Of a DNA stretch of 64,000 bases, positions 48,816-57,726 are shown piece after piece. A program made the position numbers and the translations under genes. Origin of the DNA: Candidatus Melainabacteria bacterium (GTDB lineage Bacteria > Cyanobacteriota > Vampirovibrionia > Obscuribacterales > Obscuribacteraceae); the NCBI GenBank assembly GCA_003242885.1, contig QKMZ01000006.1, positions 868,001 through 932,000 of the forward strand, in the 5' to 3' direction. The notes under the pieces are model-generated. The model was not told the origin of the DNA. It saw only the letters and a program-made list of their open reading frames with translations, and ran no database searches. Position 1 is the stretch's first letter. Every line of letters starts with the position of its first letter.

Positions 48816-48941
48816 TTAGAATTCGGCAACAAGTCCGAAACAGGCAATCATGATGATGAAGCCGAAGTAGAGTAGAAGGAACCACATCCAGCGAATGTTC
48901 AGCTCGATGTCGGACATTTTCTCTTTCTTTTCTACTGCCAT
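48816..48941 (-). CDS. 41-residue single-pass membrane peptide in the respiratory operon
   Basis: ATG 48941 with AGGA 10 nt upstream opens a 41-codon frame ending in TAA. The N-terminus is charged (AVEKKEKMSDIEL) and is followed by one TM helix (WMWFLLLYFGFIIMIACFGL). It lies between the MvhD-type gene (47 bp) and the TPR gene (12 bp), in the same direction. Small single-pass subunits are common in bc and oxidase complexes; this may be one. Confidence 0.65.
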   Translation of the reverse strand: MAVEKKEKMSDIELNIRWMWFLLLYFGFIIMIACFGLVAEF

Positions 48942-48988: not shown

Positions 48989-49393
48989 TTACTTAGCTTC
49001 CGGCGTGGCGAGATTGTTCAACGTTGCGATGAATTCTTTCGACTCTGAGATAAAGCGTTGACGCTGCGGTTTTGCCAGCCAGAGCGCCAGAATGCGGCGT
49101 CTGTCGGTACCTTTTTTGAGGGTCGGAGGACGATCGCCAAGAAGGCGTTCGCGAATCATGCGGTTGCCTTCGCGATAGTAGCAGTCGCCGATTTGGCAGC
49201 CTGTGACTACGACACCGTCAGCACCAGCTTTGATGGCATTTTCAATCATCAGAGGTTGAATCATGCCTGAGCAAGGGAATTTGACTACCTTCATGCCGGG
49301 CACTTCAGTGCAACTGCCTGAGTCGTCAACGATGCCGCTTAAATCGCAAGCGCGTTCGCAGATAAGTGTGATTACTTTCTTTGCATCAGACAT
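48989..49393 (-). CDS. MvhD-type iron-sulfur electron carrier (hydrogenase/heterodisulfide reductase delta family)
   Basis: 134 residues, cytoplasmic. It matches the MvhD/FrhD (PF02662) family, which passes electrons through an iron-sulfur cluster between an oxidoreductase and an Hdr-type partner. Cys are at 12, 16, 28, 41, 66 and 71, in motifs CERAC, FPCSGMI and TGCQIGDCYY; the last is the most diagnostic. No hydrogenase or HdrABC gene is in the window. It begins 5 bp after the cytochrome b-ferredoxin gene, so the two are almost surely co-translated and may exchange electrons. Confidence 0.88.
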   Translation of the reverse strand: MSDAKKVITLICERACDLSGIVDDSGSCTEVPGMKVVKFPCSGMIQPLMIENAIKAGADGVVVTGCQIGDCYYREGNRMIRERLLGDRPPTLKKGTDRRRILALWLAKPQRQRFISESKEFIATLNNLATPEAK

Positions 49394-49398
49394 TGGTG

Positions 49399-50577
49399 TT
49401 ACCCTTTCGCCTCCAGAAGAGCCTTAATCTTCGCGTTTACTTCCGCATCCGGAAGGTCAGGCAAATCGATTGCATCGAATGCGCAAGCGCCGACGCATAC
49501 GCCGCAGCCTGAGCAGCGGAAATCTTTTACTGTCGCCAACAATTTGAATCGTGAACCAGCTGGTGCAGGCACCATTTCAATTGCCTGGTACGGGCAGTCT
49601 TTGTAGCAGAGCGAGCAGCCTGTGCACTTGTTGAGCACAACCTCAGCTGTTTCGATTGCTGGTTGTTTCGGAATCATCAACCACGGTGCAGCCGTAATTG
49701 CGACGGTACCGAGAATCATCACTGCCCAGTAGCCCATGACCGGCATTTGGCTGAGCATGGCATAGGGCCATAGGAAGAACCAGTCGATGTCGAAGGATAC
49801 AGGCTGCTTGTTGAGGTCAGCCATGTTTCCACTGCTCAATGGCCATATGAATACGCAGACGAGAACCAGAGCGGTCAAAATGTAGTTCACTGCCGGTGGT
49901 GGCGTGAGTACCGGTCTGGTCATACGCAGGTAGTGAATCCAAAGACCGAAGAGCAGGAAGAATGAAAGACCAATGTGAATGAAAAGGAAGTTGGAAAGAG
50001 TCAGGTTAGTTATCTGATCTCCGTTCAAGAACCAGGTCTTAAGGCCAGGTCCAACTACCGGCAATGATTCGAATGCGCTGGCAGTCATTCTAGTGAGCAA
50101 TAGCGAGCGGTCATCCCAAACCAGGTAGAAACCGGTTTGACCAATGAAGAGTACGAAGATCGCCAGAACAATACCGGAAACCCATTGGAGCCAGCGGTAC
50201 TGACGGTAGCGATCTGTAAACCATACGCGCAGAGCGTGCAGCAAGATGGTGATTACCATCGCGTCGCCTGCATAACGGTGGATACCGCGGATGACACCAC
50301 CGAAAGGAAGAGACTTGGTGATGTAATCAACTGAGGTCCAAGCGTTGGTCAGAAGCTTAGAGTTATAAGCATTGTCGATGGTCGGGATGTAGTATGCGAA
50401 AAGCAGCAGCCCGGAGAGGTACAGCACCCACAGATAGTACTGGGGAAGAGCACCGTGATAGTAGAACGGATTGTATTTACTGGTCATGAACGCGTTAATC
50501 GCGTTTTCAATGGCCAGCGTCAAACCGTTGAAGGCTTTTAGCGGGTGATTATCGACAATCTTTTGCACTGGGGTCAT
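49399..50577 (-). CDS. Cytochrome b fused to a two-[4Fe-4S] ferredoxin domain
   Basis: 392 residues. Six predicted TM helices: the four-helix heme-binding half (His100 and His114 in helix B, His201 and His215 in helix D, all four b-heme ligands with 14-residue spacing) and two more helices. The canonical PEWY of the Qo site is IDWF. The C-terminal domain (about 310-380) carries two C-x2-C-x2-C-x3-C motifs (318, 321, 324, 328 and 355, 358, 361, 365). With six helices both ends face the cytoplasm, which puts the Fe-S domain beside the inner heme. It is followed at 5 bp by an MvhD-type protein and lies in the bc/oxidase operon. Confidence 0.92.
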   Translation of the reverse strand: MTPVQKIVDNHPLKAFNGLTLAIENAINAFMTSKYNPFYYHGALPQYYLWVLYLSGLLLFAYYIPTIDNAYNSKLLTNAWTSVDYITKSLPFGGVIRGIHRYAGDAMVITILLHALRVWFTDRYRQYRWLQWVSGIVLAIFVLFIGQTGFYLVWDDRSLLLTRMTASAFESLPVVGPGLKTWFLNGDQITNLTLSNFLFIHIGLSFFLLFGLWIHYLRMTRPVLTPPPAVNYILTALVLVCVFIWPLSSGNMADLNKQPVSFDIDWFFLWPYAMLSQMPVMGYWAVMILGTVAITAAPWLMIPKQPAIETAEVVLNKCTGCSLCYKDCPYQAIEMVPAPAGSRFKLLATVKDFRCSGCGVCVGACAFDAIDLPDLPDAEVNAKIKALLEAKG

Positions 50578-50613: not shown

Positions 50614-50997
50614 CTATTTCTTTACCGGTAAAACTGTCTTCTCTTCCGCATCTTCTCTGCCGATAATCATGATGGCGATACCGCCAATTGTCAGAGCTAC
50701 TCCCATAAAGAGAATGTAGCCATAGTCTCCGAGGCTGGCTGTCGACTTCGGATTTACTGAGACGCCTTTGCCTTGCAAATACTTCGTCAAATCTTCGCCC
50801 AGACTGGGTGTGAGTGAATTGAAGAAACCAGCGATTGCGCCGTGCAGACCGATTCGTGAGGTCAGGTCGGTCAACCAGTCAGGTGTGGCTCCGGTGAAAC
50901 CTAATTCAGACCATGCCATAAGAACACTGACGGCGACAACGGCGCCGGCGAATGCCAGGAGTATGATGCCCTTCGGTGAAAGTATGTACTTAATCAC
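50614..50997 (-). CDS. Small two-helix membrane protein of the bc locus
   Basis: 127 residues with TM helices at about 10-28 and 92-112. Between them a loop of about 60 residues (GFTGATPDWLTDL, SLGEDLTKYLQGKG) probably lies on the outer face. I do not recognise a family. It sits between two cytochrome b genes (36 bp and 12 bp from its neighbours), so an accessory subunit of the complex is likely. Confidence 0.75.
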   Translation of the reverse strand: MIKYILSPKGIILLAFAGAVVAVSVLMAWSELGFTGATPDWLTDLTSRIGLHGAIAGFFNSLTPSLGEDLTKYLQGKGVSVNPKSTASLGDYGYILFMGVALTIGGIAIMIIGREDAEEKTVLPVKK

Positions 50998-51009: not shown

Positions 51010-51381
51010 TTACCTGGTTCCGTTTCGTTCTGCGAGTTTTGCTTCGATTTTGTCGAACAATTTGACCTTGCGTACCAACTTCCCTGTCGACTTTTCTTCG
51101 ATGTAGATCCAGTAGCCCTGGACTGCTAGGAGCAGCATGGTTAGCGTGGTGCCGAAGAAAAGATATGCACATGGAATGAGACCGGGCTCTTTTTGAACTT
51201 CACGCCAACCCTCGAAAAACCAGGAGAGCGTGATTACCGTCAGAGTAAAAGCGAAAAGCCTTAAGGGCAGTTTCACTTTCGTTGGTTTGACCAGGGCTTT
51301 CGTTTCCACAGCGACGCTAGCATCACCTGTGGTGACGTTAGTGTTGATTGAGCGTGGGTCCTTTTTCCCGGTCAAGTTCAT
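51010..51381 (-). CDS. Small two-helix membrane protein of the bc locus
   Basis: 123 residues from ATG 51381, which lies 7 bp after the stop of the 596-residue cytochrome b (an in-frame extension to 51444 would overlap it). Two TM helices (LFAFTLTVITLSWFFEGW and IPCAYLFFGTTLTMLLLAVQGYW), with a basic C-terminus (GKLVRKVKLFDKIEAKL). No family recognised. Presumed accessory subunit. Confidence 0.72.
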   Translation of the reverse strand: MNLTGKKDPRSINTNVTTGDASVAVETKALVKPTKVKLPLRLFAFTLTVITLSWFFEGWREVQKEPGLIPCAYLFFGTTLTMLLLAVQGYWIYIEEKSTGKLVRKVKLFDKIEAKLAERNGTR

Positions 51382-51388
51382 TCCCCGA

Positions 51389-53179
51389 TTATGTTGATAC
51401 TGATGCTGGTTGAGCCGGTGCCGGTTTAGGGGCGGGCTGAGCACCAGATTTGAAGTTCCAGACCATGTAGGCGCCTACGACTGCAAAAACTGCACCTGCA
51501 ATCATCCATGTCCAATCCCAAAATGGAATCGGCAACGGATAGAAAACGCCTTTGGTGGTCGTTTCGATATTTGTGGCACGATTCATTCTGTCGCAGAATA
51601 CGACATAGTCGTAAGCCCAGCGGTTGGTGACCAGGTAGTCAACCATGCCCAAATATTTGGGGTGCTCCGGTGTAAATGTCGGAATCCAATTGACTATCCA
51701 ATCGACCGGTGACGTCATCTTGCAGTGTTCAAGAATCTGGTTGAAGGCTGCCTGAACATCTGGACCGCCTTTGGCCACATAGTTGTCCTTGAGCCAGTCT
51801 TGCCAGTCATTTTTGTAGGTAGATGCGAAGTACGTGGAGGTTGGTTGAACCTTACGCATAGCTGCTTCCAGCTTGTCAGCTTCCGGAAGAAATGGACGCA
51901 TCACACCGTAGAACCACTGTTGGAACATGGGTCCCCGGAACATTTCCACTTTCGCCATGTAGTAATAGACGAATCCCCAGAATGCTTGCGAAGCACCGAT
52001 GATTGCTATTACGAGCGCACCTTTCCATTGTTTTGCACGTTGGACGGCGTCTTTGTTTTGCCACATGAGCCAGAGCTGCAGACCCATACCTACGTTGACA
52101 GTGAGGTATGTGAAGGCTCTCCAATACGGAGGATCTGTGTGGATGTTGGCGATGTTAGCGATGATGAGCAGTGAGAACACGATCCAGCTCACGAGAGCCA
52201 TAATCACTACCCAGAATATGAATGGTCTCTTGGTGATGTCTTTCTCCGCACCGGTTAGCCAAACGTCCATGAATGGCAAGCCGACAACGATAAGAGGCAA
52301 CACGATGGTGATTTCTGTTGCAACGACCGGCTCCAAGTATTTGTACATTTGGTACAAACCAAGGAAGTACCAGTCAGACAAAATCGGAAGCGGTGTGACG
52401 TCCGGATCTGACCGTTTGCCCTGCGCAGCAGGAAGAACGATTGCAACCACAACCAACATCAATGTGATGATGGTGCGCTTCGCCCAGCTGAGTGGAACGC
52501 GCTTGTAGGCGTTTTTGTAGAAGTAGAGTTCTACAAAGATCAAAGGAATAAGAGAGAACGCGAGGTGGATAGAGAAGAATCGCGTGATTGTCTCCTGCGT
52601 GATAGCAGCTCCGCCGCCCAGGAGAACTTCTGCTGTATTCCATCCCATGTGAATAGACTTAACGAGCGGCTGATAGAAGTCGCCCATGACCGGGAATTGG
52701 TCCATGTAAGTCGGGAATGTCGCGAATACCTTCGTCGCCCAAAATGCGCGCTGGTTCCAGATCAAGAGATATCCAGTCAGACCGGAATACATTGAAAGGA
52801 GAAGCGCTACAAGAGCGATTGCGATGTTGAACTCTTTACCAGGTTTGTAATCGGCGCAGATGAACATGCGATACATGCGCATCGTCGCCGCGATGATCAT
52901 GGCGTCGGCACCGTACTTGTGCATGCCCCGCATAAGACCGCCGAACGGAATACCGTTTTGAATGTGGAGAATAGAATCAAATGCCTGCGCTTTCGTAGGC
53001 ACGTACCACATGATGAGCACGCAGCCTGTGAACATAACGAGGAACCAGACCATGTAGAAGATTGGCCCCAGTGAATACCAGGGATTTGTCTTCGCTTCCT
53101 CGCGGTGATGCTCATCGAAAATATCGATGTTGTTGATCCGCGTCTTAACCCAGTCTATGGTTGCATTTACCGCTGACAT
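51389..53179 (-). CDS. Large cytochrome b subunit lacking both heme bH ligands
   Basis: 596 residues, longer than usual cytochrome b (about 400). The N-terminal cytochrome b core (about 30-225) keeps the first ligand of helix B (His87) and of helix D (His205), which bind the p-side heme bL. The second ligands, 14 residues on, are Arg101 and Tyr219 (codons CGC and TAC, verified on the DNA), so heme bH cannot be bound in the usual way. The Qo motif is SDWY (268-271) in place of PEWY. Several further TM helices and an extra soluble region (about 395-545) with a final TM anchor and a Pro/Ala-rich tail follow. It is 16 bp after the Rieske gene. Confidence 0.93.
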   Translation of the reverse strand: MSAVNATIDWVKTRINNIDIFDEHHREEAKTNPWYSLGPIFYMVWFLVMFTGCVLIMWYVPTKAQAFDSILHIQNGIPFGGLMRGMHKYGADAMIIAATMRMYRMFICADYKPGKEFNIAIALVALLLSMYSGLTGYLLIWNQRAFWATKVFATFPTYMDQFPVMGDFYQPLVKSIHMGWNTAEVLLGGGAAITQETITRFFSIHLAFSLIPLIFVELYFYKNAYKRVPLSWAKRTIITLMLVVVAIVLPAAQGKRSDPDVTPLPILSDWYFLGLYQMYKYLEPVVATEITIVLPLIVVGLPFMDVWLTGAEKDITKRPFIFWVVIMALVSWIVFSLLIIANIANIHTDPPYWRAFTYLTVNVGMGLQLWLMWQNKDAVQRAKQWKGALVIAIIGASQAFWGFVYYYMAKVEMFRGPMFQQWFYGVMRPFLPEADKLEAAMRKVQPTSTYFASTYKNDWQDWLKDNYVAKGGPDVQAAFNQILEHCKMTSPVDWIVNWIPTFTPEHPKYLGMVDYLVTNRWAYDYVVFCDRMNRATNIETTTKGVFYPLPIPFWDWTWMIAGAVFAVVGAYMVWNFKSGAQPAPKPAPAQPASVST

Positions 53180-53195
53180 CTATTGATTGACTCCC

Positions 53196-53759
53196 TCAGG
53201 CGATTGAACCGGCTTCTAAACCAATAATCTTGTATGAATCTCCCTCTTTCTTGAGGTCGAATTTACGCGGTGGGCGTGGGGCTGGACCGGAAACGACCTT
53301 GCCGTTTTGGGCGATGTCATAAACGCTCAAGTGGCAAGGGCAGGCGAATACAGGACCTTGCGGCTTGAAGTTATAACCCTTGGCGCAATCTTCCGGCTTT
53401 GGTACCCAGTTGAACACGCAACCGAGGTGCGGGCAAATACGGCTGTAAGCAACAACATCACCTGATGGCAATTTGACGATGAAACCAGGGATTTCACGGA
53501 CTTCTTTGCCTTCCGGGTTGTACTCAACATATTTTTGTTTGAACATGAACTCTAAACATGTCCATTCAGTTGGAAAATCCGTATCTTTGAAAGCCACATC
53601 TTCTTCGGGCCCCGGTTGATCGGAAGGTCCGAAAACATCCAGAGGCTTCAGCGTTGGACGCATGTACCTCAGAAGCGGCGATATGACCAGACCAAACGTG
53701 GCGGCGAGCGGAATAGCTGCCAGAGTCTTCAGAATAATTCTTCTATTTGTGCCTTCCAT
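53196..53759 (-). CDS. Rieske [2Fe-2S] protein
   Basis: 187 residues from ATG 53759 (GGAG 9 nt upstream; a longer reading to 53846 overlaps the cytochrome c gene). A twin-arginine N-terminus (NRRIILKTLAAIPLAA) serves as Tat signal and membrane anchor. Cluster ligands Cys109, His111, Cys140 and His143 and the disulfide Cys114-Cys142 are all present (CPHLGC and CPCH). It would take electrons from quinol at the Qo site and pass them to the cytochrome c encoded upstream in the operon. Confidence 0.96.
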   Translation of the reverse strand: MEGTNRRIILKTLAAIPLAATFGLVISPLLRYMRPTLKPLDVFGPSDQPGPEEDVAFKDTDFPTEWTCLEFMFKQKYVEYNPEGKEVREIPGFIVKLPSGDVVAYSRICPHLGCVFNWVPKPEDCAKGYNFKPQGPVFACPCHLSVYDIAQNGKVVSGPAPRPPRKFDLKKEGDSYKIIGLEAGSIA

Positions 53760-53772
53760 TTTTCGAACTCCG

Positions 53773-54711
53773 TTACTTTGTCTCGCCCTGAGGCTTAGCT
53801 TCTTCGGGTTTAGCATCAGCGGGTTTGTCTTCCGCTGGCTTAGCATCTTCGGCGTTGGCGTTCTTTTTCGTGTTATCGATTGGAGCGCCTACCGTCGGCG
53901 AGCCGATATTTGCCTCGGCGATTTGTTTGTTGGTTGAGTGGAATGCACGCACGTAGGCTACGAGCTTCCAAATATAAGCCTCATCGAATTTAACTTCTTT
54001 GGCTTTGTCCTCCTTGCCGAGGAAATTGGGCATCCCTTCCCACTTTATGCCATTTGCGATGTGATCCCATAGGATATCGTCGGTTCTGTCGTAAAAACGC
54101 TTATAGTTTTGGAAGTTGGCAGGGTTGGGCTCGAGTACGTTGTACTTGTTGAGCGGACCGTCGCCATAACCCTTAGGACCGTGGCAGACTGCGCAATTGG
54201 CGCCGTATACAGCGGTAACTTTGGCGTATTCTTTCGCATCCAACAGCGGTGCTGAGAGAGAGCGAACGTAATAAACAAGGTTCCAAGTCTTCTGGCTGGA
54301 GATGTCAGCCAAGGTTGTTGGGTGCTTGACGCCGTCTTTGCCGAAGGCGAGGAACATATATTGATCGATCGGCTTTTGTTTGTGACCGTACTCAGGAGAG
54401 GTGAGGTCGATAGCCGACTTGCCGCTGACGCCTTTTCCGTTCGTGCCGTGGCACTCAGCGCAAGAAAGCTTTTCATAAACAACTTTGCCGTCCGGCTCGG
54501 ATGGTTTGTCATCCGGGTAAATGGCTTCTCTTCCACCCTTGGTTACGTCTTTGGAAACCAGCTGTGAATCGTCACCTTTGACGGTAACTTGATTGCCGCA
54601 ACCGGTTACTAGTGTCACCGCCGGTAACACCACTAACAAAAGCGCCAGCAAAGATGTCGTTAGCCCGGCGAATGTTTCAAACGTAAAAACTGGTTTTTTG
54701 GAACGTGTCAT
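53773..54711 (-). CDS. Diheme cytochrome c lipoprotein
   Basis: 312 residues. A lipobox (VTGC, Cys38) ends the signal peptide, so the protein is probably lipid-anchored outside the inner membrane. Two heme c sites: C84-AE-C87-H88 and C173-AV-C176-H177, each in a cytochrome c domain. The last 45 residues are a disordered Ala/Lys/Pro/Glu tail (KPADAKPEEAKPQ). It lies between the oxidase and Rieske genes and probably shuttles electrons from the Rieske protein to the cbb3 oxidase. Confidence 0.93.
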   Translation of the reverse strand: MTRSKKPVFTFETFAGLTTSLLALLLVVLPAVTLVTGCGNQVTVKGDDSQLVSKDVTKGGREAIYPDDKPSEPDGKVVYEKLSCAECHGTNGKGVSGKSAIDLTSPEYGHKQKPIDQYMFLAFGKDGVKHPTTLADISSQKTWNLVYYVRSLSAPLLDAKEYAKVTAVYGANCAVCHGPKGYGDGPLNKYNVLEPNPANFQNYKRFYDRTDDILWDHIANGIKWEGMPNFLGKEDKAKEVKFDEAYIWKLVAYVRAFHSTNKQIAEANIGSPTVGAPIDNTKKNANAEDAKPAEDKPADAKPEEAKPQGETK

Positions 54712-54718
54712 AACTCAC

Positions 54719-54964
54719 TCAGTAACCGAAGAAAGGAATCCAGGAGAACATTGCCCAAAGAACAATGAAAAAGAAGCAAACAATAAGAAAGAGCGGCGGC
54801 GGTCCTTCGCCGATACGATATTCGGAGACTACTTCATAGTGCTCATCAACGGAGGGAGCGGCTGCTGCAGTTTTTACGGCTGCGGCTGGTTTGCTTGCGG
54901 GTTTTTCTTCGGCAGATTTTTCTGCCTTCACCTCGTCTCCACTGTTTTTTACTTCTTCAGCCAT
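54719..54964 (-). CDS. Small tail-anchored membrane protein
   Basis: 81 residues. An acidic/Ala-Lys-rich N-terminal half is followed by one C-terminal TM helix (PPPLFLIVCFFFIVLWAMFSWIPF). Located 7 bp before the cytochrome c gene and 27 bp after the CcoS-like gene. No family recognised; it has the size of a CcoQ or CcoH-like accessory subunit, but sequence similarity is not evident. Confidence 0.72.
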   Translation of the reverse strand: MAEEVKNSGDEVKAEKSAEEKPASKPAAAVKTAAAAPSVDEHYEVVSEYRIGEGPPPLFLIVCFFFIVLWAMFSWIPFFGY

Positions 54965-54991: not shown

Positions 54992-55240
54992 TTACTTGTT
55001 GGCAGTCGATGCGCTGAGCCTGATTTTTTCAACGGCTGCCAGCGCCTTTTGACCAGTAGTGTTGTCGTCGCCGTCGTCGAGCATGTCGAACTTGACGTCT
55101 TCCATGTTTTCAAACTCACCGTTCTTGAAGGCCCACAAGATCGCTCCAATGGCCATTACGAAAAACAATCCGCAAATGAAGAAGGCCACATATATTCCAG
55201 AGCTCAATCCTTGTTGGTTGAGAATGCAATTAGGACACAT
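54992..55240 (-). CDS. CcoS-like small membrane protein with N-terminal CxxC
   Basis: 82 residues. One TM helix (VAFFICGLFFVMAIGAILWAF) is followed by KNGEFENMEDVKFDML, which resembles the W-A-x-x-x-G-Q-F-D-D-L-E pattern after the helix in CcoS, the cbb3 maturation factor for heme and copper insertion. The N-terminus has an added CPNC motif that could bind metal or form a disulfide. It starts directly after the stop of the CcoO-like gene, so the two are tightly coupled. Confidence 0.75.
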   Translation of the reverse strand: MCPNCILNQQGLSSGIYVAFFICGLFFVMAIGAILWAFKNGEFENMEDVKFDMLDDGDDNTTGQKALAAVEKIRLSASTANK

Positions 55241-56320
55241 CTAGTGACCTCCTTCTTTGGTTCCGGCAGGGTCAGTATTGCTACTGGATTCGGTGCCTTT
55301 TGGGGATGAAGGTGTGGACTGCTGAGGCATCTGATGCTCGGATGGGCTCATGTTGTCGGACTCGGAGTGATGCCCGTGTCCGCCATGGTGAGGTTCGTAT
55401 TGCTGGTTCGACAATTTCGGAAGATGGATATCTTCTACCTTGTCGATTTGGTTGATGCTGTTGATAGTTACTTCCCGATCTTGAGGAAGCGTTTTCAGGT
55501 ATGCAACCAGATACCAACGTTGCTCTTCAGTGAGGGTCTCTGCCCAGCGCGGCATTCGGGTACCAACAATTCCTTCCGAGACTCTGTAGAACCAGAACTC
55601 ATCAGAGTATTGCTTGTAGTACGGACGGCTGAAATTCGGTGGTTTCTTCTCCAGAGACAGCGCATTCGGACCTTCGCCATAGCCATTCAAACCGTGGCAA
55701 ACAGCGCAGTTCTGAGTATAGATGCCTCTACCGGCATTGGCGCTGGCACTGGCATTGGTGTCAACCGTTTTGCGGTTGTGCAGTGCGACACCGGCTGGTG
55801 TAGTTGTTCTGTACTCGTCCGGTGCTTCGACGAAATCTTTCACATGGCGGCCGTTGCCTAAGCATTGCAAGTAAGCAACCAGGTCATTCATGTCCCTTTC
55901 TGAAAGATAGCTGAAACTCGGCATGATCGAGCCCGGCTTGACTGCGCGAGGCTGAATCAAGTGAGCCTTTTGCCACTCCGAAGCCATGCGTCCGCCTTCA
56001 TTAGTCAGGTCCGGTCCAGTGCGGGCAGTGCCCAACTGGTGCGGTGTTTCCCAGATGTAGTCCCCGGCTTTGACGAGAGGTCCATAACCTCTGTCTTGTA
56101 GACGGGTGAATTGTGTATGGCAGTAGAAGCACCCTTCCCTGACATAGATTTTTCTTCCTCGAGCCGCATCCGCGACGTTCGAAGCGACTTTGGTGTAGTC
56201 GTTGCTTCTGTGCTCTTTGTCGGTGGGATTGAAAAGCACCATCGGCAGAAGAACTGTCGAGAAGATGATGATGAAGAAGGTTGTGACGATCCCGATCGCT
56301 CCTAAACGATAACTGTGCAT
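55241..56320 (-). CDS. CcoO-type cytochrome c subunit fused to a second cytochrome c domain
   Basis: 359 residues. An N-terminal TM anchor (FFIIIFSTVLLPMVLF) leads to a CcoO domain with heme motif C63-FY-C66-H67 and the CcoO signature (YGPLVKAGDYIWETPHQLGTARTGPDLTN, then GSIMPSF). A second cytochrome c domain has C205-AV-C208-H209. In normal cbb3 oxidases CcoO has one heme and a separate CcoP has two, so this is a compact CcoO/CcoP-like fusion. The C-terminal tail is rich in His and Ser (HHGGHGHHSES). Its ATG overlaps the ccoN stop (TAATG). Confidence 0.93.
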   Translation of the reverse strand: MHSYRLGAIGIVTTFFIIIFSTVLLPMVLFNPTDKEHRSNDYTKVASNVADAARGRKIYVREGCFYCHTQFTRLQDRGYGPLVKAGDYIWETPHQLGTARTGPDLTNEGGRMASEWQKAHLIQPRAVKPGSIMPSFSYLSERDMNDLVAYLQCLGNGRHVKDFVEAPDEYRTTTPAGVALHNRKTVDTNASASANAGRGIYTQNCAVCHGLNGYGEGPNALSLEKKPPNFSRPYYKQYSDEFWFYRVSEGIVGTRMPRWAETLTEEQRWYLVAYLKTLPQDREVTINSINQIDKVEDIHLPKLSNQQYEPHHGGHGHHSESDNMSPSEHQMPQQSTPSSPKGTESSSNTDPAGTKEGGH

Positions 56321-57726
56321 TACGCTTTCACCTCCGCTGCCTTAGCTGCTTTAGCAACCGATTCGACAGGTTTTGTGTAGAGCGTCTTCCAGACGTTATA
56401 TGCGAACAGAAGTTGTCCAAGGACAATCATGATTCCACTTATGCCTCTAAAGAACCAGTAAGGTCTGATCTGCAGTCCCCATTGATCGACCGGAATGCCC
56501 ATAGCCCAACCGGCCGACTGAATCAAACCGGCGATGGTGAGAGATGTCATCATCAGGAGGAAGCCAAGGAATTTCAGCCAGTAGTGAGCGCGGATCAGAC
56601 CCTGGCTGTAGAACTCCTTACCGGTCAATTTCGGCAACGAATAATAGATTGCCGAGGTGAGGATAAAGGAGAAAGTTCCCAGCAAAGCCAGGTGGGCGTG
56701 TCCGACAACCCACTGAGTGAAGTGCAAGTACCAGTTCACCCAGCGGGTAGCCTGGAAGGGCCCTTGTACGCAGGTGACCAAGTAGAACATACAAGATGTC
56801 ACTGCAAAGCGCAGTGGCAGATCGGTGACGGCCTGACCCCAGCGACCCTTCATTGTCATGAAGAAGTTGGTCAATACTGTGAGTACGGGCACTAAAAGGA
56901 ATATTGAAGAGATGATCGCAATTGCCTTGAGCCATTCGGGCACAGGCGATTGAGTAATGTGGTGCGTACCGGTGGGTGCGTAGAAGAGGGCAATACCCCA
57001 GAACCCCAACATCGACAAGCCGTGGCTGTAAAGCGGTGCCTGCGTCAGTCTGGGTAGCAGGTAATACATCATTCCTACGCCGACAGTGGTAAACCACATG
57101 CCCAGAATGTTGTGTCCATAGAACCAACCGACGATCGCATCATTAAGACCGGGCAAGGCGACGAAAGTACGCTGACCGATGATCCAGACAAGAGGGAACC
57201 AGAAAAGCGACCCGAGGAAGTACCAAAGGGTTACATAGAGCTTCTTGACCCTCCTGTTCAGGATTGTCATGTAGATGTTGAGTGCAACGAGCACCAGGGC
57301 AACAGCGACAAGCACGTCCAGAATTGCACCCAGCTCTGCGTATTCTCGTCCTTCGGTGTTGCCATTGATGAGAGTGCAAAAGGCCCCGATGAGCACCAGG
57401 TTCCATGCCCACATGGTCATATTTCCTAGTCGCTCCGACCATAGCTTGGTCTTGCAGAGATTTGGAACCATGTAGAAGATGGAGCCGACATATCCCATCG
57501 ATAGCCAACCTACGGCGACCGCGTTGACGTGGAACATCCGCATGTGCGGGAATGCCAACTGCGGCACGTTTTTAACCAGGTCGGGCATGGAAAACTCCAA
57601 GCCGCCGATCATTCCTGCACCCATGCCCCACAGTGACCACCACAGAGCGGATAGGAAGAAATTACGACTGGCGCTGCCCTCTTTATTGCTGAAAAGCTTG
57701 TCTGCAACAGAACTCAACTTGGACAC
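56320..57726 (-). CDS. ccoN: cbb3-type cytochrome c oxidase catalytic subunit I
   Basis: 468 residues with about 12 TM helices. It reduces oxygen to water and pumps protons. Metal ligands are recognisable: RMFHVNAVAVGW (heme b), FYGHNILGMWFT (CuB His), GTHHITQSPVPEW (CuB His pair) and HFTQWVVGHAHLALLG (heme b3 and b His). These match cbb3 rather than aa3 oxidases. The start is GTG 57726. It opens a run of 11-12 genes that continue through the bc complex, and 470 bp of non-coding sequence precedes it. Confidence 0.95.
   Translation of the reverse strand: MSKLSSVADKLFSNKEGSASRNFFLSALWWSLWGMGAGMIGGLEFSMPDLVKNVPQLAFPHMRMFHVNAVAVGWLSMGYVGSIFYMVPNLCKTKLWSERLGNMTMWAWNLVLIGAFCTLINGNTEGREYAELGAILDVLVAVALVLVALNIYMTILNRRVKKLYVTLWYFLGSLFWFPLVWIIGQRTFVALPGLNDAIVGWFYGHNILGMWFTTVGVGMMYYLLPRLTQAPLYSHGLSMLGFWGIALFYAPTGTHHITQSPVPEWLKAIAIISSIFLLVPVLTVLTNFFMTMKGRWGQAVTDLPLRFAVTSCMFYLVTCVQGPFQATRWVNWYLHFTQWVVGHAHLALLGTFSFILTSAIYYSLPKLTGKEFYSQGLIRAHYWLKFLGFLLMMTSLTIAGLIQSAGWAMGIPVDQWGLQIRPYWFFRGISGIMIVLGQLLFAYNVWKTLYTKPVESVAKAAKAAEVKA

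Follow-up and report, generated by a model that had tools for sequence, protein, structure and literature searches.

A gene run in the window (the whole 64,000-nucleotide stretch of DNA analysed here) probably encodes an asymmetric Rieske/cytochrome b complex that is tied to a cbb3 oxidase and carries an iron-sulfur branch on its inner side, whichever way electrons travel along that branch. The run lies on a single strand, extends from position 57726 down to 48816, and comprises in order ccoN, ccoO, ccoS, the gene for a protein designated p8, genes for a dihaem cytochrome c, a Rieske protein and a cytochrome b without bH ligands (cytbL), the small genes p4 and p3, a cytochrome b-ferredoxin fusion (cytbFd), FlpD, and a closing 41-aa ORF. 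The asymmetric complex is supported by ligand patterns that held without exception in 69 + 12 cytbFd and 64 cytbL rows, by the completeness of the operon across Vampirovibrionia loci, and by the presence of cytbFd and cytbL in the same five genomes. The inner-side Fe-S branch is supported by the predicted placement of the ferredoxin domain inside, by one-polypeptide fusions of the same parts in other phyla, and by consecutive matches to the HdrA2 profile. Counting against the asymmetric complex, no Rieske gene was found near the fusion relatives (0/11 loci). The initial annotation had spoken of a "rewired quinol oxidase", a description that stands if it is taken to mean a rewired complex III feeding cbb3.

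At the oxidase end of the run, in which all features lie on the minus strand, we found a CcoN-like haem-copper oxidase subunit I of the cbb3 type that scored under the NCBIfam equivalog cut-off (56320..57726), a FixO/CcoO-type subunit with an extra cytochrome c domain (55241..56320, minus strand) and a FixS/CcoS-type cbb3 maturation protein (54992..55240, minus strand). These were followed by p8 (54719..54964, minus strand; 81 aa), which had no family match and was conserved within the operon, and by the cytochrome c (53773..54711, minus strand) with two CxxCH motifs. The Rieske [2Fe-2S] protein (53196..53846, minus strand), whose true start codon may lie further inside this ORF, carried the motifs CPHLGC and CPCHLSVYD and matched the Pfam Rieske family at 9.1e-10. 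In the alignment of its relatives all 62 rows had CPHLGC or CPHMGC and all 62 had CPCH, and the hydrogen-bonding residues that raise the potential were Ser in 62/62 rows and Tyr in 52/62; such residues are treated as a sign of high potential in an account of anammox Rieske proteins (PMC12954380). The small hydrophobic protein p4 (51010..51444, minus strand) was kept in nearly all operons, while p3 (50614..50997, minus strand), likewise small and hydrophobic, was recognised in most of them; searches of Pfam and NCBIfam returned no match to either. The 41-aa ORF at the end of the run (48816..48941, minus strand) had a single hydrophobic stretch and a C-terminal FGLVAEF, and its equivalent followed FlpD in 63/63 loci. 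The operon contained no gene for an N-side NAD(P)/FAD oxidoreductase, and no such gene was a widespread feature of the 5 kb that follow FlpD in the relatives' loci.

The protein cytbFd (49399..50577, minus strand; 392 aa) joins a cytochrome b with bL and bH ligands and bc1-type helices A-F to a C-terminal ferredoxin domain with two [4Fe-4S] motifs. Pfam placed Cytochrome_B at residues 29-219 (3.2e-22) and Fer4_7 at residues 317-369 (4.6e-9). It had been proposed earlier that this one protein holds a full set of b-haem ligands together with two [4Fe-4S] motifs, and all of these were conserved in the alignment of relatives. The histidines H100/H114 and H201/H215, which form the standard bL and bH pairs, were present in all 69 Vampirovibrionia rows, the window included, and in 12/12 proteins from other phyla (ORFs of less than 300 aa were left out of this count, as was the case for L108 at a contig end). 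Each of the eight cluster cysteines was found in 67-69 of the 69 Vampirovibrionia rows and in 12/12 rows from other phyla, the exceptions being one Tyr and otherwise gaps. The Qo-site region of cytbFd had an LDWF-like motif in which only the Asp was invariant (69/69), and the sequence from the window had no Cys ahead of helix E.

An AlphaFold2 model of cytbFd (mean pLDDT 89.6, pTM 0.86) aligned with bc1 cytochrome b over residues 32-306, the best match being 9ftz_H (Z 26.6, rmsd 3.1, 272 residues); the structure alignment, A3, took 58 of the 68 selected rows. The bc1-like part of the model stops at helix F, and the two [4Fe-4S] motifs come after it; beyond that helix, a bc1 chain lies at the negative side. 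In addition, K/R per residue was 0.155 in the inner loops vs 0.047 in the outer loops, as delimited from the model, and was higher on the inner side in 67/67 rows. Because the bc1 match ends at helix F and the inner loops are richer in K/R, the ferredoxin domain (residues ~313-375) is predicted by the model to face the cytoplasm, in agreement with the initial annotation, which had put it at the cytoplasmic end. A ferredoxin domain outside the membrane was ruled out by the same bc1-type fold up to helix F and the same loop bias.

The ORF of the FlpD/MvhD-type [2Fe-2S] protein (48989..49393, minus strand; 134 aa) begins 5 bp after that of cytbFd (50577-49399, then 49393-48989, minus strand), so that the MvhD-type gene described earlier at this distance past the fusion is indeed there. 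It matched the Pfam FlpD family at 8.5e-20 (71.4 bits vs a cut-off of 22.3), and its cysteines Cys12, 41, 66 and 71 were kept in 66, 66, 66 and 65 of 66 rows, respectively. Its sequence relatives in the PDB were 5odc_D and 8rvu_F. Known MvhD proteins bring in electrons from hydrogenase or formate dehydrogenase. The HdrA2 profile (NCBIfam NF040770) matched the two operon proteins consecutively and in the same order, positions 571-644 covering the ferredoxin domain and 650-774 covering FlpD; these were also the two best matches in the organism's own genome, the rest being short and weak. The flavin body of HdrA was not found in this genome (93% complete), in which only HdrA2 profile positions 571-774 were matched. 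Since the genome holds a single FlpD gene and the HdrA2 profile matches only the C-terminal module of the operon and weak fragments, an Hdr enzyme is apparently not the partner of FlpD here. The MvhD-type identity assigned before was borne out by profile and cysteines, and the Hdr partner attached to it was not, as no HdrA flavin body was found. Service by FlpD to an Hdr system elsewhere in the genome was rejected on the same grounds (FlpD single-copy, HdrA flavin body not found).

The second cytochrome b, cytbL (51389..53179, minus strand), has the bL ligands H87 and H205, and R101 and Y219 stand at its bH positions, where they align with the bH histidines of spinach cytochrome b6 from the PDB. 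Both bL histidines were present in 64/64 rows (ORFs of less than 380 aa were left out of this count); the first bH position was Arg in 55 and Lys in 9 (64/64), and the second was Tyr in 64/64. The bH-less paralogue claimed in the initial annotation is therefore real, with R/K and Y at the bH positions in all 64 rows. As a control, 37/37 other cytochromes b in the tree alignment, among them 13 b6-like or ordinary cytochromes b from the same group, had His at all four positions, and 14/14 cytbL sequences in that alignment were without the bH pair. The PEWY site of cytbL reads LSDWYFL in the window, and SDWY was present in 64/64 rows. The cysteine of haem ci is absent, as YCLGG of b6 aligns with YSLGP. 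Both cytochromes b of the operon carry the helices past D and a PEWY-like segment in a single chain and are not split into b6 and subunit IV. The four haem-ligating histidines are all found in cytbFd and not in cytbL, and only the two proteins together hold the set next to a Rieske protein.

Relatives of the operon were located by scanning genome contigs with a five-member cytbFd alignment, and 80 loci were kept of 92 relatives; 69 of these were of the Vampirovibrionia type (L039-L105, L108, L118), including a few that were labelled otherwise (for example L057 Chloroflexi and L071 Proteobacteria) yet were 65-70% identical, and 11 were from other phyla. The nearest public contig, labelled Candidatus Melainabacteria, was 97% identical over cytbFd. 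FlpD lay directly downstream of cytbFd in 64/64 Vampirovibrionia loci with at least 450 bases of flank, which argues that the adjacency is not chance and refutes an absence of the pairing in related genomes. Upstream of cytbFd, in the Vampirovibrionia loci with enough flank, we found cytbL in 58/58, Rieske in 55/55 and ccoN in 46/46. The phylum was represented by 292 genomes, and the same five of them gave matches to both proteins (E < 1e-100 for cytbFd, E < 1e-40 for cytbL). A scan of viral contigs gave 13 pattern matches, none of which was a relative. In a tree of helices A-D, for which 14 loci were named and 13 gave rows, cytbFd grouped with cytochrome b-ferredoxin-FlpD fusions (support 98) and cytbL with the b6 group (100), and the main organism groups were alike within both parts of the tree. 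Since the tree joins each protein to another group, cytbFd and cytbL are of different lineages. A recent duplication of cytbL as the source of cytbFd was ruled out by the position of cytbFd within the cytochrome b-ferredoxin-FlpD family.

In the 11 loci from other phyla (L106, L107, L109-L117), which were labelled Spirochaetes, Chloroflexi and Proteobacteria/Pseudomonadota, cytochrome b, ferredoxin and FlpD form a single polypeptide of 489-716 aa; this fusion of the same parts argues that the pairing of cytbFd with FlpD is functional. The FlpD profile scored 11 of the 12 fusion proteins, the exception being L115, where the protein at L115:9935-12019 has an FlpD domain without its cysteines and retains ferredoxin and haem ligands. 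Alignment A4 of the fusion proteins took 10 of the 12, and a model of the L109 fusion had a mean pLDDT of 71.5, too low to place FlpD relative to the ferredoxin domain. A Rieske-like ORF was found near the fusion gene in none of the 11 loci, nor was a bH-less cytochrome b found nearby, and the cytochrome b-ferredoxin-FlpD module is thus not intrinsically a Rieske partner. In the 8 of the 11 loci for which neighbours were listed, genes for subunit I of a haem-copper type, for a small subunit II, for SCO or for haem A/O synthesis recurred, and ten neighbour proteins were checked by Pfam. The Tyr motif of subunit I was GHSxQQ or GHPAQQ in several of these loci, and NirS and NnrS lay near the L106 fusion; the Gln-Gln type occurred near the fusions of L106, L107, L110, L112, L113 and L116, in part with NirS and NnrS. 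Such a subunit I together with NirS/NnrS suggests what we take to be nitric oxide reductases of the eNOR kind, and the fusion proteins in those loci are possibly an electron module of nitric oxide reductases. A similar set on the Defluviimonas plasmid NZ_CP156080.1 bore no annotation other than "cytochrome b N-terminal domain-containing protein", and an appendix (PMC8756737), in the part considered here, records PRK03735, DMSOR_beta-like and FlpD domains in a single protein. A tandem pair of cytochrome b-ferredoxin-FlpD genes, perhaps duplicated or a heterodimeric pair, was seen at L107:8271-11518. A protein of ~165-190 aa that looks membrane-anchored and has no convincing family follows the fusion gene directly at L107:11515-12018, L109:11473-12036, L110:6802-7368 and L112:11545-12045, and in L106, L113, L115 and L116 the fusion itself seems to end in a comparable C-terminal segment.

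In the mechanism that we propose, cytbL and cytbFd would be the two halves of a heterodimer. Menaquinol would be oxidised at the Qo site of cytbL, with the first electron travelling to O2 by way of Rieske, the dihaem cytochrome c and CcoO/CcoN. The second electron would have to cross from bL of cytbL to bL of cytbFd, because cytbL lacks a bH to receive it, and could then move from bL to bH of cytbFd, where we place its meeting with the Fe-S branch, and on through the two [4Fe-4S] clusters to FlpD. In bc1 dimers engineered to be asymmetric, electron transfer between the bL haems of the two halves matters for catalysis (PMC4330944). The likeliest direction would be out of the complex, towards a cytoplasmic acceptor of low potential, for example ferredoxin; reduced ferredoxin could feed the genome's complex I without NADH module, and the overall process would be a quinol-driven bifurcation paid for by O2. 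We hold the asymmetric complex with electron exit through the Fe-S branch as a tentative reading. Doubtful as yet is the fullest statement of it, a natural, obligately asymmetric complex III in which one menaquinol electron would go to O2 by Rieske and cbb3 and the other, after crossing between the bL haems, would run along a ferredoxin-FlpD wire derived from HdrA2 to low-potential carriers driving a complex I without NADH module.

Exit is favoured by the loss of bH on the Rieske side, which removes a return route of low-potential electrons to quinone there, and by the coexistence of the signs of a high-potential Rieske protein (Ser, Tyr) with menaquinone, a potential argument that has also been used for NAD(P) reduction by anammox complexes (PMC12954380). 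The futalosine-pathway family PF02621 was present in the organism's own genome, in which no MenD was found above the cut-off. Exit is also favoured because NuoH was present and the NuoF family gave no match in this genome (93% complete). Against it, known MvhD proteins have an input role; reduced ferredoxin is probably already a catabolic product, since the genome encodes 2-oxoacid:ferredoxin oxidoreductases (two loci); no enzyme accepting the branch electrons is encoded in the operon; and a weak or absent Qi site in cytbFd would be required.

Electron entry, a reading that we credit only guardedly, would start in the cytoplasm, from reduced ferredoxin or from an enzyme that docks on FlpD. Electrons from this donor would pass by way of FlpD and the ferredoxin clusters to bH of cytbFd and reduce quinone there, together with Rieske-side electrons arriving by the bL-bL bridge. 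A ferredoxin-fed Q cycle has been proposed for cytochrome b6f in cyclic electron flow, and entry would resemble it. It gains from the input adaptor role that we take FlpD/MvhD to have in solved Hdr complexes (those of its relatives 5odc_D and 8rvu_F), from the correspondence of the ferredoxin-FlpD module to the C-terminal part of HdrA2, from the two 2-oxoacid:ferredoxin oxidoreductase loci, and from the fact that flow from ferredoxin to menaquinone is downhill. Entry leaves the loss of bH from cytbL in every member unexplained, however; a complex I-like enzyme without NADH module would spend reduced ferredoxin with more pumping, and the operon has no producer of low-potential electrons. On balance we lean slightly to exit, with entry almost as likely. 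The exit, reverse electron flow or bifurcation put forward in the initial annotation accordingly keep the standing of tentative readings.

Separate enzymes or non-catalytic roles, with cytbFd-FlpD as an oxidoreductase of its own between quinone and a cytoplasmic carrier and cytbL as a homodimer with a truncated mechanism other than a Q cycle, or with the Fe-S part as a redox sensor or assembly factor, are improbable: the tree does place cytbFd with the fusions of other phyla (98) and cytbL with b6 (100), and the fused relatives do stand without Rieske or cytbL, but co-occurrence and gene order are strict, the electron on bL of a homodimer without bH would have no route through the membrane, and haem and cluster ligands that are so nearly invariant point to catalysis and not to a sensor role.

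Electron bifurcation is classically illustrated by quinol oxidation at complex III, and to our knowledge the low-potential electron of that reaction has always been thought to go back to quinone, a proposal for anammox bacteria excepted. In cytochrome b6f acting as a ferredoxin:plastoquinone reductase, ferredoxin electrons meet Q-cycle electrons at the stromal side, and the proposed inner-side meeting here would be comparable; b6f uses soluble ferredoxin and has haem ci at its Qi side, whereas in the present operon ferredoxin is fused to the cytochrome b of cytbFd, and cytbL has Ser in place of the ci Cys. The likeness to HdrA2/MvhD-HdrABC (NF040770; 5odc, 7bkb) lies in a domain with two [4Fe-4S] clusters followed by MvhD in the same order, with a cytochrome b in place of the flavin-bifurcating HdrA part. 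The cytochrome b-ferredoxin-FlpD fusions, as the sister family of cytbFd, have the same domains and a nitric-oxide-reductase-like or oxidase subunit I nearby; unlike the cytbFd operon, they form one chain and lack a nearby Rieske protein or bH-less cytochrome b. For the anammox Rieske/cytochrome b complexes of Kuenenia (Kuste4569-4573 and Kustd1480-1485; PMC12954380), a negative-side Fe-S/flavin branch has similarly been proposed to take one quinol electron to a low-potential cytoplasmic acceptor, and there too menaquinone occurs with high-potential Rieske proteins (PMC12954380). In that account, however, the branch is an FAD-containing NAD(P) oxidoreductase and a homodimer is modelled, whereas the partner here is a cbb3 O2 reductase; the bH-less cytochrome b, the ferredoxin fusion and FlpD found here have no counterpart in the parts of the account considered (PMC12954380). 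The engineered asymmetric bc1 dimers (PMC4330944) share the bL-bL crossing between unlike halves and are laboratory constructs, whereas the asymmetry here would be natural and evolutionarily fixed if the two proteins dimerise as we infer. Clustering of complex III/IV genes in Melainabacteria has been published (PMC6349859), and PMC4040986, in the parts considered, mentions only a complete respiratory chain. Our literature search returned no account of a bH-less subunit or of a ferredoxin-FlpD branch in Vampirovibrionia complex III, and a prior mention in Soo et al. 2017 or Murali et al. 2024 is possible.

An invariant pairing of this sort, in which one haem is lacking and an Fe-S branch lets electrons out or in, would make testable both a natural use of inter-monomer bL-bL transfer and an electron exchange between complex III and ferredoxin. 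With ferredoxin and FlpD at the inner face, electrons could be traded between the quinone pool and low-potential carriers. Vampirovibrionia are non-photosynthetic close relatives of Cyanobacteria, and the operon is therefore relevant to the possible origin of ferredoxin-linked cyclic flow through b6f.

Elsewhere, at L037:6720-8317, the organism's own genome (C15) encodes another Rieske/cytochrome b pair, an ordinary one in which PEWY and all four haem ligands are present; this pair adjoins a cytochrome bd-like subunit with a cytochrome c motif. A second NuoH cluster at L127:2654-9941 resembled, by eye, a group 4 hydrogenase/formate hydrogenlyase-like complex.
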